Below are positions 53,259 through 61,395 of a DNA stretch of 64,000 bases, piece after piece. The translations under genes were made by a program, and so were the position numbers. Each line of letters opens with the position of its first letter. Within the stretch, counting starts at the first letter, position 1. A model generated the notes under the pieces. The model saw only the letters and a list, made by a program, of their open reading frames with translations. It was not told the DNA's origin and did no database searches. This DNA comes from an uncultured marine group I thaumarchaeote (GTDB lineage: Archaea; Thermoproteota; Nitrososphaeria; Nitrososphaerales; Nitrosopumilaceae): NCBI GenBank assembly GCA_902590655.1, contig CACIXQ010000001.1:1-64000 (forward strand), given 5' to 3'.

Positions 53259-55709
53259 CTATGTTACCGTGAAATATTGAACTTCTACGCTAGATAGTGG
53301 GTTGGCGGAATCAAGGTCATCCCATAGGAAAATCTCTGCTACGTAAGTACCAGGTTCGTCGGGTGTCCAGGATATTGTTTGTGTCAATGCTTGTCCCTGA
53401 GCTAGTGAACCAGTAACTGTGGAAATTGAGACTGGTGTTCCATCTTCATATTTTATCTGCACAATGTATGCGAATATCTGCGAATCATCTTTTTGGTTTA
53501 CAATGTCTGTTTCAATCTGAATTTCAGATCCTGTGGTTATTTCGTCTGATTCGGAGACAACTTCAGCTTCCGTTTCTACTGCTTCTGGTGGAGGTTCAAA
53601 CTCAATTTGTTCTGATTCGTCTTCTGTCTGCTCTGTGGCTTCAACAATTACAGTTCCTGTCATCCATGGATGAACCATGCAAAAGTAGGGGTATGTTCCT
53701 GGTTCGTCAATTCTGAGATTAAAGCTGCCGCCAGCCATCATCAAGCTTGTGTCCCAAACTCCATCTGGCCCATCAGTTGGAGTACCGGATGTTGCTGTGT
53801 GAGCTGCATTGTCATCGTTATACCAAGTAATTCCCTGCCCAGCAGATACTGTAATGGTGCTTGGAATGAAACAATCGTTGGTTTCCTCACATCCCGGCGT
53901 TGCTGAGCCTAGTGCGTTTTTCACCACTCCTGGATTGGCTTCGGCCCATGCTGCATCTGCTGCGGCTGTTGCTGCTTCTTCCGCGGCTATTGCTGCCTCC
54001 TGTGCCGCGACAAATGCTTCTATCTCAGCCGCATCACCCACAACGACGGTTCCCTGCATCCATGGGTGAACCATGCAGAAATAGTCGTATGAGCCTGGTT
54101 CGTCAAATGCATGAGAGTATGATCCACCAACCATCATCAAGCTGCTATCAAATACACCGTCTGGTCCACCAGATGATGTACCAGAGGTTGCTGTATGAGC
54201 TGCATTATCAGTATTCTCCCAAGTAACTGTCTCGCCAATGGCTATCGCGATGGTGCTGGGCATAAAACAGGTGTTGTTTTCCTCACATCCCGGGGTTGAT
54301 GAGCCTGATGTGTTGTAGACTGTGTTAGGGTTTGATATTATCGTAAAGGTTATGGTTTGTTTATCGTCCATGTTAGTGGACAAATACATTGTAATGGTAT
54401 ATGTTCCATAATCGAGGTTTTTTATGGAAGCATCATAGTTGGTTGTATCGTTGTGAAGCTGGCTCACAGTTAGGACATTGCCGTTGGAATTTGTTAGTGT
54501 AAATATTATGTCGCTTGCAGTTGAAGGTTGAGTATGGTAAATTGACACCTCAATTGATTCGTCTACACCATGATGGTATGTAGTCCTATCAGTGCTTATG
54601 GTCAATGTTGGTGTAACTTCAGGTTCTGGGATGTTGATTTGAAGTGTAATTGGTGGTGACAGTAAATTTTTGTCATCTATATTGTCTACCACTTTAATCA
54701 TCAATATGTAATCTCCAGCACTTCTATCTGCTGCCTCCCATTCAAGAGCAGGTGAGTCTTGAGCTCCTATTTGTAATGAGTTTGAGACCCACAAACCATC
54801 AGGTTTTGCTGGTAAAGGAGGAGTAAACTGTACCCAATAAGTATATGGTTGGGGCACTTCTAGTTCATTTCTTACATCTGCCATAATTCGTACGTCGTCG
54901 AATAGTGTAACTTCTGATATTGGATTGTGCATCGGATCAACAAATCTTGCATTACTCAAAGTAACAGTCTCAGATTCTGCAGCTGTTTCAGCCTCAGATT
55001 CGGGTGGTAGCACAGTAACAATAAAGCTCTTGCTGCCTTCATGACCGTATTGGTTTAGTCCATTACATGTTACAATGGTTGTTCCAGGTGGGAATGTCAT
55101 GCTCATTGTAAATACTGGGACTGGTGGTGGATTTGTCATATGGCCTGCGGAATCATTGCATGTCACCGATTCTAAATACGAGCCAGACGAGACGTCGTCA
55201 TGGCGCACTGTCCAAGATAGGCTGTACCCAGTTGCGTTTAGTGCTGTGCGGGTTACTTCTAAGTAGTTTTCTCGCAGTGGATTACTATAAAGTAATTCAT
55301 CTACTCCATCAAACCTAAGTTCGATTGGCTCAGAAGATGGTTCACCAACAATTACAGTTCCTTGCATCCAGGGATGAACCATACAATGGTAGGGATATGT
55401 TCCTGCTTCATCTAATGTAACAGAAAAACTGCCACCAGCCATCATCAAGCTGGTGTCCCAAACTCCGTCTGGTCCATCTTCAGTTGTACCAGATGTTGCT
55501 GTATGAGCTGCATTGTCAGTGTTTTCCCAAGTCACTGTTTCGCCAACACTAATTGTAACAGTGCTTGGGATGAAACAGGAGTTGGTTTCCTCACATCCCG
55601 GCGTTGCTGAGCCTAGTGCGTTTGTTACAGTAGCGTCTGCAAACGCTCCGGGAACCGCAAAAACTCCGATAGAAAAAATTACTAAAACTGAAAAAAGCAA
55701 ATATCGCAT
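53259..55709 (-). CDS. Secreted three-cupredoxin protein
   Basis: 816 aa with signal peptide (LFSVLVIFSIGVFAVPGAFA). Three blue-copper domains at about 25-120, 465-560 and 590-690; each has the first His in NAAHTATSG and the CMVHPWM ligand trio (YPYHCMVHPWM, YDYFCMVHPWM, YPYFCMVHPWM). Between the first and second are Ig-like β-domains; between the second and third is an Ala-rich helix (EAFVAAQEAAIAAEEAATAA). Thaumarchaea use many such extracellular copper proteins in electron transfer around ammonia oxidation. No C-terminal anchor. Upstream elements shared with the gene at 56.0 kb. Confidence 0.9.
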   Translation of the reverse strand: MRYLLFSVLVIFSIGVFAVPGAFADATVTNALGSATPGCEETNSCFIPSTVTISVGETVTWENTDNAAHTATSGTTEDGPDGVWDTSLMMAGGSFSVTLDEAGTYPYHCMVHPWMQGTVIVGEPSSEPIELRFDGVDELLYSNPLRENYLEVTRTALNATGYSLSWTVRHDDVSSGSYLESVTCNDSAGHMTNPPPVPVFTMSMTFPPGTTIVTCNGLNQYGHEGSKSFIVTVLPPESEAETAAESETVTLSNARFVDPMHNPISEVTLFDDVRIMADVRNELEVPQPYTYWVQFTPPLPAKPDGLWVSNSLQIGAQDSPALEWEAADRSAGDYILMIKVVDNIDDKNLLSPPITLQINIPEPEVTPTLTISTDRTTYHHGVDESIEVSIYHTQPSTASDIIFTLTNSNGNVLTVSQLHNDTTNYDASIKNLDYGTYTITMYLSTNMDDKQTITFTIISNPNTVYNTSGSSTPGCEENNTCFMPSTIAIAIGETVTWENTDNAAHTATSGTSSGGPDGVFDSSLMMVGGSYSHAFDEPGSYDYFCMVHPWMQGTVVVGDAAEIEAFVAAQEAAIAAEEAATAAADAAWAEANPGVVKNALGSATPGCEETNDCFIPSTITVSAGQGITWYNDDNAAHTATSGTPTDGPDGVWDTSLMMAGGSFNLRIDEPGTYPYFCMVHPWMTGTVIVEATEQTEDESEQIEFEPPPEAVETEAEVVSESDEITTGSEIQIETDIVNQKDDSQIFAYIVQIKYEDGTPVSISTVTGSLAQGQALTQTISWTPDEPGTYVAEIFLWDDLDSANPLSSVEVQYFTVT

Positions 55710-58663: not shown

Positions 58664-59239
58664 GTGATGATAATTGACATCCCTGATACAGGCATCATGT
58701 TGGTTGCAGTGCTAGCATTTCTCAGTGGTATTGTAACTTTGTACTTGTACAACAAGACAAGAACGGTGGGAGTTTCGGAAAAGATTGCTCCAACTAACCT
58801 GGAACGCATCGACTACTACGAAAAGGAGATGATTGATATGAAAATACGCCTAGATGTTATGGAATTAGATGGTGAAGAGTACACAAAACCAGACTTGCCA
58901 ACGAAAAAAGTAACGTCTTTTGACGTACCAGAAGTGAAGGAACCAGAATTTGTTGCTCCAAAACCAAAGGCAGCAGCACGAGTTCCTAACATGAGTTTTG
59001 AAAAGTCAGTTACATTTGTGTTAGAAAAAATCACAGAAGGTCCGATGACATCACGTGATATTGAAGTGACATTAGGAAAATCACGTGAACATGTTTCACG
59101 GTTGATGAAAAAGTTGTTTGAGGACAATCTTGTTGGTAGAGATACTTCTACCAGACCTTACAGATACACAATTACCGAAAAAGGTAGAGAACGAATTGGT
59201 TCTGGTGATGGTGGCGTTGTTTACGCAGTATCACAGTAA
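58664..59239 (+). CDS. Membrane-anchored winged-helix protein
   Basis: 191 aa from GTG (or ATG at 58667). One N-terminal helix (GIMLVAVLAFLSGIVTLYLY, about 9-28), a coiled-coil/linker region, then a C-terminal winged helix: VTFVLEKITEGPMTSRDIEV, TLGKSREHVSRLMKKLFEDN and YRYTITEKGRERIG. DNA binding from a membrane-tethered position; second such protein in the window after the one at 19.9-20.8 kb. Preceded by ~109 bp with no gene. Confidence 0.8.
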   Translation: MMIIDIPDTGIMLVAVLAFLSGIVTLYLYNKTRTVGVSEKIAPTNLERIDYYEKEMIDMKIRLDVMELDGEEYTKPDLPTKKVTSFDVPEVKEPEFVAPKPKAAARVPNMSFEKSVTFVLEKITEGPMTSRDIEVTLGKSREHVSRLMKKLFEDNLVGRDTSTRPYRYTITEKGRERIGSGDGGVVYAVSQ

Positions 59240-59243
59240 GAGT

Positions 59244-59627
59244 CTAAGGATGTTTTTGTGCTATACGAATGATTTGGTATGACCACTCTCTTCCTACACG
59301 TGCACGCTCAATCTTGTTTCGTGAGGCAAATCTTGCCAAATAGGTAGAAACTATGCTTAGTTTGATAGGCTCATTGTACTCGTCTTCGTACTTTTCAAGC
59401 ACGTCTGAGGAGGTGAATTTGCCTGCTGGGAAGTGATTCTCTACGACATTCCATATCTTGCCTCCTACGGAGTCCAAGTCTGGTGTCTGTTCCTCCTCTA
59501 TGTTCATCAAATCCATTAATTCGAAGAGTTTGAGGACTTTGTCTTTGGTGACGTTACCCTCAATGTCAAACTTGAATTTGGCCCCTTCGGTGTCCTCTAG
59601 GTTTATTCGTATCCTTTTCTGTTTCAT
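59244..59627 (-). CDS. Conserved protein with C-terminal winged helix
   Basis: 127 aa. A β-rich start (MKQKRIRINLEDTEGAKFKF) and a helical/winged C-terminal part (FTSSDVLEKYEDEYNEPIKL, SIVSTYLARFASRNKIERAR). Could be a DNA-binding protein; it starts next to the putative replication origin, which makes a replication-linked role worth testing. Convergent with the membrane wHTH gene. Confidence 0.68.
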   Translation of the reverse strand: MKQKRIRINLEDTEGAKFKFDIEGNVTKDKVLKLFELMDLMNIEEEQTPDLDSVGGKIWNVVENHFPAGKFTSSDVLEKYEDEYNEPIKLSIVSTYLARFASRNKIERARVGREWSYQIIRIAQKHP

Positions 59628-59755
59628 ATCGAGATCTATGAGGATCCTGTGTTAACACTTCAATGGATCCTACAAGTTTTGTTAACAAACGAATTTGTTA
59701 AGATTGACTGCCTGGTCCACGCTGGCCTGTTTTTGGTTGTTAACAGAGGCTGGAC

Positions 59756-59770
59756 TGGAAATAAGGGGGT
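59756..59770 (+). repeat. ORB-like origin repeat 1
   Basis: TGGAAATAAGGGGGT, with the TGGAAA...GGGGG core of archaeal (mini-)ORB elements recognised by Orc1/Cdc6. Exactly repeated 38 bp further on in the same direction. Confidence 0.65.
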
Positions 59771-59791
59771 AAGGTTTGGTTTTGTGCCTAG

Positions 59792-59810
59792 AGTGGAAAT
59801 AAGGGGGTGT
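59792..59810 (+). repeat. ORB-like origin repeat 2
   Basis: AGTGGAAATAAGGGGGTGT; its central 15 bp (59794-59808) equal repeat 1. Same strand and one G-string each. Confidence 0.65.
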
Positions 59811-59932
59811 TTTTGGTCTCTTAACATGTGTTAAGGGTCTTATTAACACCATTAACAAGCAAATAAGCCCATTTTTACCTTCTTTTGTAAAAATATAACC
59901 CGTTATTAACAAATCTCTTCGTTGTGAACCCA

Positions 59933-59950
59933 CACACCTTGGTTTCTACT
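59933..59950 (-). repeat. Degenerate inverted ORB-like repeat
   Basis: Read on the minus strand, AGTAGAAACCAAGGTGTGT, matching repeat 2 at 14 of 19 positions and pointing the opposite way across the AT-rich stretch (the match runs one base further, to 59932), the usual arrangement around an unwinding element. Confidence 0.4.
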
Positions 59951-60159
59951 CTTTTTGTTATAAAAAAATTTTTTATGACAAGAACAAACTAACAAAAACC
60001 AAATCAAAATAACATATTATTCTAAAAATAGATTAGAAATGATGGTGTGTGTGTCATCGATCAAGCCGATCAGAGCATGTCAACCAGAACGATCAATGTT
60101 GTAAAAACGAACTACTGGATCCATTCAAGTGTGAAATTACGATAGATAATGATCTCAAA

Positions 60160-61395
60160 ATGAGTATAACAACTTTGGATCCAGTGGAAAAACTACTAGA
60201 TAGTGCAGAACAAGGTAACTTGTTAATCAAAAACCCAAACGTGTTACGCCATGACTACATCCCAGAACGAATCTTGCATAGAGACAAGCAGCAAGAACTT
60301 GTAACACAATCATTAATTCCATTATACAAAAAATCAATACCACCAAACTTGTTGGTGTATGGCAAGCCAGGAACTGGCAAGACACTTGTAATAAAAAAAG
60401 TACTAAACCAAATTCAAAACAGAGTCGACAAGAACTCACATAAAATCAAGATAGCAACCACAAACGCAAAGGATCAATCAAACCTTTACAATGTGTTGGT
60501 TGACTTGGGCAGACAACTTGGCCTCAAATCAAAAAAGACACCTGACGACAAACTTTGGTTACCAAACACAGGACTATCAATCAGTGAAGTTTTCAATCGT
60601 ATTCTTTACATTATTGACAAAAACAAAATTAATTCCGTCTTTGTAATAGATGAAATTGATCATCTTGCTAAGCTTGTTGACAAGACTGGCAAAGACGTTC
60701 TTTACTCAATTACCAGGGCAAACCTAAAACTAAAAACTGGCTCGTTATCTCTAATTGGAATTTCTAATGACGTCAGATTCAAGGACGAATTAGACCCAAG
60801 AGTAATTAGTACACTTAGTGAGGAAGAACTTGTTTTTCCAGCATATGAGACAAATGAGATTAAAGAAATCTTAGAAGACAGAATACCATTAGCATTTGAG
60901 CAAGACGCTGTATCAAGCGGGGCTTTGAACCTATGTGCTTCTATGGCATGTAGAGAACACGGCGATGCTCGAAGGGCAATCAAATTGTTAGATGTAGCTG
61001 CAAAGACTGCAGAACTAAAACAAGACAAATCCATCACAGACGAGCACATACGTTTAGCATCTCAAAGGATTGAGGTAGACAAGGAATCCCAACAACTTAA
61101 CGCCTTCTCATTACACGAAAAACTACTTGTAATCACCATAATGAAATCCCCAAACATCTCAACCGGAGACATCTACACAGCATACAAATCACTTTGTAAA
61201 ACCACTCACCAAAATACACTCACACAGAGGCGTGTTACACAAATGCTTAATGAGATAGAACTATCTGGTCTCATTTCTGGTAAAATGATCCACCAAGGAA
61301 TTCATGGAAATACAAAGAAATTCAACCTCACAATAACTCCAGATTTGGTCAAAAACACCCTCAAATCTGATGAAATATTCTCAGACGTCTTATAA
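60160..61395 (+). CDS. orc1/cdc6: Origin recognition/Cdc6 replication initiator
   Basis: 411 aa from the ATG at 60160 (MSITTLDPVEKLLDSAEQGN). A GTG at 60049 extends the frame by 37 residues that look unlike the family and include several Cys/His, so I prefer 60160. Walker A YGKPGTGKTLVIKK (about 67-80), Walker B SVFVIDEIDHL (about 160), sensor region SLIGISNDVRFKDELDPRV, arginine region and a C-terminal winged helix (VLTQRRVTQML-like; LTQRRVTQMLNEIELSGLIS). Binds ORB elements and loads MCM. It lies directly beside the putative origin. Confidence 0.93.
   Translation: MSITTLDPVEKLLDSAEQGNLLIKNPNVLRHDYIPERILHRDKQQELVTQSLIPLYKKSIPPNLLVYGKPGTGKTLVIKKVLNQIQNRVDKNSHKIKIATTNAKDQSNLYNVLVDLGRQLGLKSKKTPDDKLWLPNTGLSISEVFNRILYIIDKNKINSVFVIDEIDHLAKLVDKTGKDVLYSITRANLKLKTGSLSLIGISNDVRFKDELDPRVISTLSEEELVFPAYETNEIKEILEDRIPLAFEQDAVSSGALNLCASMACREHGDARRAIKLLDVAAKTAELKQDKSITDEHIRLASQRIEVDKESQQLNAFSLHEKLLVITIMKSPNISTGDIYTAYKSLCKTTHQNTLTQRRVTQMLNEIELSGLISGKMIHQGIHGNTKKFNLTITPDLVKNTLKSDEIFSDVL

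Follow-up and report, generated by a model that had tools for sequence, protein, structure and literature searches.

Two questions are raised by the intergenic region upstream of the orc1/cdc6 gene of this marine archaeon: whether it serves as a chromosomal replication origin, and whether the close spacing of its repeats defines a lineage-specific origin layout. To our knowledge, archaeal origins have hardly been dissected beyond Sulfolobus, haloarchaea and Thermococcales. In this study, we conclude with high confidence that positions 59628–60159 constitute a chromosomal origin of the Orc1/Cdc6 type (oriC1 type), with turnover of ORBs in the clade to which it belongs and with a second repeat, TTAAC. 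The window, that is, the whole stretch of 64,000 nucleotides analyzed, comes from contig C1 of a 0.91-Mb draft genome (74% complete, 40 contigs). Its host is a Marine Group I ammonia-oxidizing archaeon of the Nitrosopumilaceae, from a Nitrosopelagicus-like genus, and the named relatives close to it (91–96% identity in Cdc6) come from single-cell and draft genomes of Marine Group I. The initiator gene (60160–61395, + strand, 411 aa) is recognized by Pfam Cdc6_lid and Cdc6_C and by TIGR02928, and a profile search of the 74%-complete draft returned it as the single match. Its conserved start is the ATG at 60160, which sets the intergenic region at 59628–60159. Elsewhere in the window, a secreted protein of 816 aa is encoded at positions 53259–55709 (− strand); to judge from its three cupredoxin-like repeats (TPGCEE..CF.PST...MVHPWM.GTV), it is likely copper-binding.

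The original prediction had placed two exact 15-bp direct repeats, a degenerate inverted copy and an orc1/cdc6 gene next to each other, and all of these stand, with positions correct to within a few bases. The repeat TGGAAATAAGGGGGT occurs exactly at 59756–59770 and 59794–59808, both on the + strand; the 0.91-Mb draft genome holds no further exact copy, and the next best carry two mismatches. The 20-mers at 59751–59770 and 59789–59808 each match 17 of the 20 positions of the common ORB motif of Ori-Finder 2, TCCA[CG]T[TG]GAAA[TC][GA]AAGGGGT (PMC4164010), a score with zero occurrences in 20 × 64 kb of first-order Markov controls of the window. We also built an ORB position matrix from the boxes of relatives only, leaving the window out. 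In the window, its four highest-scoring sites are all ORBs lying upstream of cdc6, at 59789 (32.6 bits), 59751 (32.1), 60029 (16.6) and, on the − strand, 59934 (13.5), followed by a fifth-ranked site at 6.0 bits. The two strongest are TAGAGTGGAAATAAGGGGGT (59789–59808, + strand), the ancestral ORB1, and TGGACTGGAAATAAGGGGGT (59751–59770, + strand), which lies 38 bp upstream of it and, as the comparison below shows, was gained. The inverted box is ORB3 (59934–59953, − strand), which matches 14/20 and keeps its position and strand across the family. The fourth box, ORB4 (60029–60048, + strand), absent from the original prediction and added by the present analysis, also keeps its position in relatives. 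Each of the window's ORB3 and ORB4 is weak on its own. Between them lies a candidate DNA-unwinding element (59959–60038), which has the lowest stability of any 80 bp in the intergenic region and is the third least stable 80-mer of the window. By analogy with characterized archaeal origins, Orc1/Cdc6 from the adjoining gene would bind the four ORBs (59751 and 59789 direct, 59934 inverted, 60029 direct), melt the AT-rich DNA that separates ORB3 from ORB4, and then load MCM.

This anatomy is widely conserved. The ORB pair and the inverted ORB3, usually with ORB4 too, are kept upstream of cdc6 in all scanned Nitrosopumilaceae. Most of the order's remaining families keep this arrangement as well, and several of them have boxes that match 20/20, so that the expectation of finding the repeat at orthologous loci was borne out across the order. 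For comparison we relied on a complete genome from the window's genus (G096, 1,232,128 bp) and on a second complete genome from the family (G093, 1,645,259 bp), in both of which the arrangement around cdc6 is as in the window. They appear to be Ca. Nitrosopelagicus brevis and N. maritimus, respectively; these names, like the family codes used below (f1 and so on), are ones that we infer. Cumulative GC skew was detrended and sampled in 20 evenly spread 20-kb pieces of each genome, with a permutation test. In G096, the skew has its maximum at cdc6 and its minimum at 430–490 kb (p 0.0006), and the signal of G093 is weak (p 0.35). The skew extremum anticipated at this site is therefore present in G096, but as a maximum instead of the predicted minimum, and skew by itself cannot separate an origin from a terminus. 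The local skew within the window makes no clear turn at the candidate origin. A phage search with the origin DNA returned no matches.

The single origin of Nitrosopumilus maritimus SCM1 was reportedly mapped by Pelve et al. in 2013 (Mol Microbiol), a study cited in PMC4010727 and PMC5333045, both of which give one mapped origin for N. maritimus. A further paper (PMC5797428) assigns the origin to a site next to ORB repeats and cdc in both N. maritimus and N. cavascurensis, the placement in Ca. Nitrosocaldus being made by analogy. Altogether, we assign an origin to this region because the ORBs, the cdc6 gene, their conservation, the skew extremum of a relative, the low-stability element and the N. 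maritimus origin all agree. This type of origin is already known, and an origin at the cdc6 site is expected for the group.

The spacing of the direct boxes was found to be lineage-specific, as had been proposed. They lie exactly 38 bp apart in five sister species, namely the window and four others, and nowhere else among the family members scanned, whereas the pair is 61–62 bp apart in 63 of 63 other Nitrosopumilaceae with a scanned upstream region (47 sampled across the family and 16 genus genomes outside the window's clade). A stricter pattern allowing 54–80 bp found the pair in 157 of 250 family genomes, at 61 or 62 bp among the matches listed. When 24–52 bp were allowed, only the window and three sisters matched (4/250); the fourth sister, G201, has the 38-bp spacing too, and one of its boxes departs from the strict pattern. 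In the Cdc6 tree, the five species group together with full support, and their clade sits at the end of a long branch, the position of which within the family is not well supported. The Cdc6 of this clade is only ~62% identical to that of the rest of its own genus.

How did the 38-bp spacing arise? The difference between 62 and 38 is 24 bp, and a single deletion of that length between the ancestral ORB1 and ORB2 would be simpler than the gain and loss of boxes; misassembly is the other alternative. We regard both as very improbable. Against them, the spacing is exactly 38 bp in five independent assemblies, the family's ORB1–ORB2 linker (TTAACA..TGTTAA, then C/ATGCC or CACC) comes after the second box in the 38-bp clade, and G201 has a third, damaged box, TGGAATGGTAAAAGGGGTGT, exactly 62 bp after the second. 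Because the linker follows it, the box at 59789 is identified as the ancestral ORB1. At the ORB2 site, 62–64 bp further on, the damaged box of G201 still scores 12.8 bits and is preceded by the family's CATGCC; at any single position, a score this high is expected by chance in fewer than 1 in 200,000 cases. The same site scores −3.7 bits in G207, and nothing recognizable is left in G227, G205 or the window (below −19). The window's decayed remnant of ORB2, identified by clade comparison, spans 59851–59872 (+ strand) and falls below the ORB score. Moreover, the alignment of the sister clade shows no box corresponding to that at 59751. The graded decay of ORB2 together with this unmatched box thus indicates that one box was gained and one lost. 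These sequence comparisons show that the clade acquired an upstream box and retained ORB1, with the old ORB2 (~59853) decaying in steps.

This clade-specific turnover of boxes appears to be new. Our search of the open literature, which covered few subscription papers, found nothing on ORB layout in ammonia oxidizers beyond the papers cited here. With the altered spacing, the bound initiators probably took on a different geometry, since 62 bp is about six helical turns and 38 bp is not a whole number of turns. In the order outside the Nitrosopumilaceae, the direct pair is mostly 58–64 bp apart. One genome of f2 (G030) and one of f3 (G002) also have a box 41–44 bp upstream of another, so that an extra upstream box is either old or has arisen more than once. 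The G030 locus (L098) carries three direct ORBs at 389–287 bp upstream of cdc6, 41 and 61 bp apart; its divergent gene is 3 kb away, and its extra upstream box resembles that of the window's clade. Comparing hundreds of genomes thus resolves origin anatomy to the base, with an ORB pair nearly fixed at 61–62 bp throughout a family, and offers a rare look at the turnover of initiator sites at a single essential origin.

Besides the ORBs, the region carries an array of TTAAC/GTTAA boxes (59651–59910). The original prediction of about nine such motifs proved exact, with nine sites at 59651, 59681, 59697, 59739, 59821, 59830, 59843, 59852 and 59906. Three of them are GTTAAC palindromes, and the nine hold 12 TTAAC/GTTAA strings. 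All 12 fall in the densest 300 bp of the window, the next best 300 bp holding 5. These strings are ~10 times denser at the origin than in the genome; in the window as well as in G096 and G093, the origin is where their density is highest. In families f1, f2, f3 and f8, TTAAC reaches 24–36 per kb against ~3–4 for other letter orders, also at 48% GC. In f4, f6, f7, f10, f11 and f16, TTCAC stands in homologous places (7–14 per kb against ~2), and f9, f12 and f14 are mixed. The origins of f13 are enriched in neither TTAAC nor TTCAC, and the winged-helix gene described below is turned round in this family; at L163 (G067) and L183 (G053) it is co-directional with cdc6 across a short gap. By this comparison, the TTAAC array belongs to a second, order-wide element that reads TTAAC or TTCAC depending on the family. 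A direct-triple TTAAC pattern was also tried as a genome-wide origin marker and set aside as not specific: the origin matches, yet so do scattered other sites. The ORB1–ORB2 linker of f1 contains the palindrome TTAACA-N-TGTTAA, which suggests a dimeric binder. In the window, comparison with the family linker places a palindrome, TTAACATGTGTTAA, in the former ORB1–ORB2 linker (59821–59834).

The gene divergent from cdc6 (59244–59627, − strand) encodes a 127-aa winged-helix protein and is an order-wide neighbor of the origin. Nothing significant was found for it in Pfam, NCBIfam or PDB sequence searches. Among 201 genomes of the order, 160 have a match to its own profile (115 of 129 when only good genomes are counted), almost always a single one, and a gap of 500–570 bp facing cdc6 is closed by this gene in most families. 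In the single-sequence model, a beta-hairpin/helix part is accompanied by a C-terminal winged helix that is modelled with confidence and the recognition helix of which is strongly conserved (LSxISTYLxR). Foldseek/VIA returned generic winged helices (Fur at Z 10.5, with those of Cdt1 and Orc1 among many near Z 8), so that we read no function from the structure matches. At residue 100, within this helix, families with TTAAC have F/Y and most of those with TTCAC have L/M, a correlation confounded by phylogeny. The objection that TTAAC does not track the gene, raised by f10, which has the gene and no TTAAC, was dropped in view of the TTCAC boxes in homologous places there. In most Nitrosopumilaceae, the origin gene pair is also adjoined by a second winged-helix gene, membrane-anchored and of the HTH_27 type (58664–59239, + strand, in the window).

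These sequence features make a dimeric winged-helix protein the probable binder of TTAAC, and the divergent 127-aa product is the best candidate for it. The correlation across families suggests that this protein reads TT(A/C)AC boxes; it could then act as an autoregulator and/or as a co-factor of the origin. On this basis, we tentatively propose, as a possibility we hold with considerable doubt, that Nitrososphaerales origins have a second recognition system besides ORB/Orc1, in which TT(A/C)AC arrays would be bound by the winged-helix protein that nearly all families encode divergently at the origin, and the box would have changed from TTCAC to TTAAC in f1, f2, f3 and f8, which we take to be the ammonia oxidizers. 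To judge from the order-wide element and its winged-helix neighbor, ammonia-oxidizing archaea may have a second origin factor. We found no description of TTAAC boxes at archaeal origins, nor of such an element with a winged-helix neighbor, in the open literature, most subscription papers lying outside the search; our results suggest that the latter combination is new.

It could be argued that the repeats and the TTAAC boxes serve as operators for cdc6 and the winged-helix gene, which have divergent promoters here, and that the origin lies elsewhere. We consider this very improbable. The four boxes match the ORB of Orc1, and the order-wide layout persists where the intergenic region has grown to 1–1.9 kb, although the elements do sit in a divergent intergenic region and autoregulation of Cdc6 through ORBs would be compatible with an operator role. 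The TTAACA-N-TGTTAA palindrome is typical for a dimeric repressor, and the neighbor is a winged-helix protein; however, at L097 (G071) the boxes lie ~300 bp further from cdc6 with their mutual spacing unchanged, and the skew extremum of G096 falls at cdc6. With the region read as an origin, a double role of TTAAC at the origin and as an operator is possible. That the TTAAC boxes are a by-product of the AT-rich composition of the region (~65% AT) hardly deserves credence, as TTAAC occurs 12 times against a mean of ~1 for other permutations of the same letters, f8 origins at 48% GC still hold 15–16 TTAAC, and the TTAAC positions are conserved.

The origin described here shares with oriC1 of Pyrococcus, Sulfolobus and haloarchaea the initiator gene next to the origin, the ORB core GTGGAAA...GGGGT on both strands, and an AT-rich element between inverted boxes. 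It differs from them by the additional TTAAC array and by the 38-bp pair of its clade. In addition, TGGA/TAGA has replaced the left TCCA half in the boxes of the Nitrosopumilaceae. This replacement extends to all boxes in the whole family (G093, G111 and others), the rest of the order having TCCA, and on sequence comparison it is a concerted change of initiator sites. With N. maritimus SCM1, represented by G093 under its presumed identity, the window shares the family, the cdc6 and 127-aa gene neighbors, ORB1/ORB2/ORB3 and the TTAAC array; in contrast, the direct pair of G093 is 62 bp apart instead of 38 bp, and ORB2 has decayed in the window. On the other hand, oriC3 of Sulfolobus has the winged-helix initiator WhiP encoded beside it. 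The two systems are alike in having an origin with a neighboring winged-helix gene; the sequence searches gave no sign that they belong together. Unlike at oriC3, the neighbor here is a protein of ~127 aa with a single winged helix, encoded at an origin that has cdc6 and ORBs as well.
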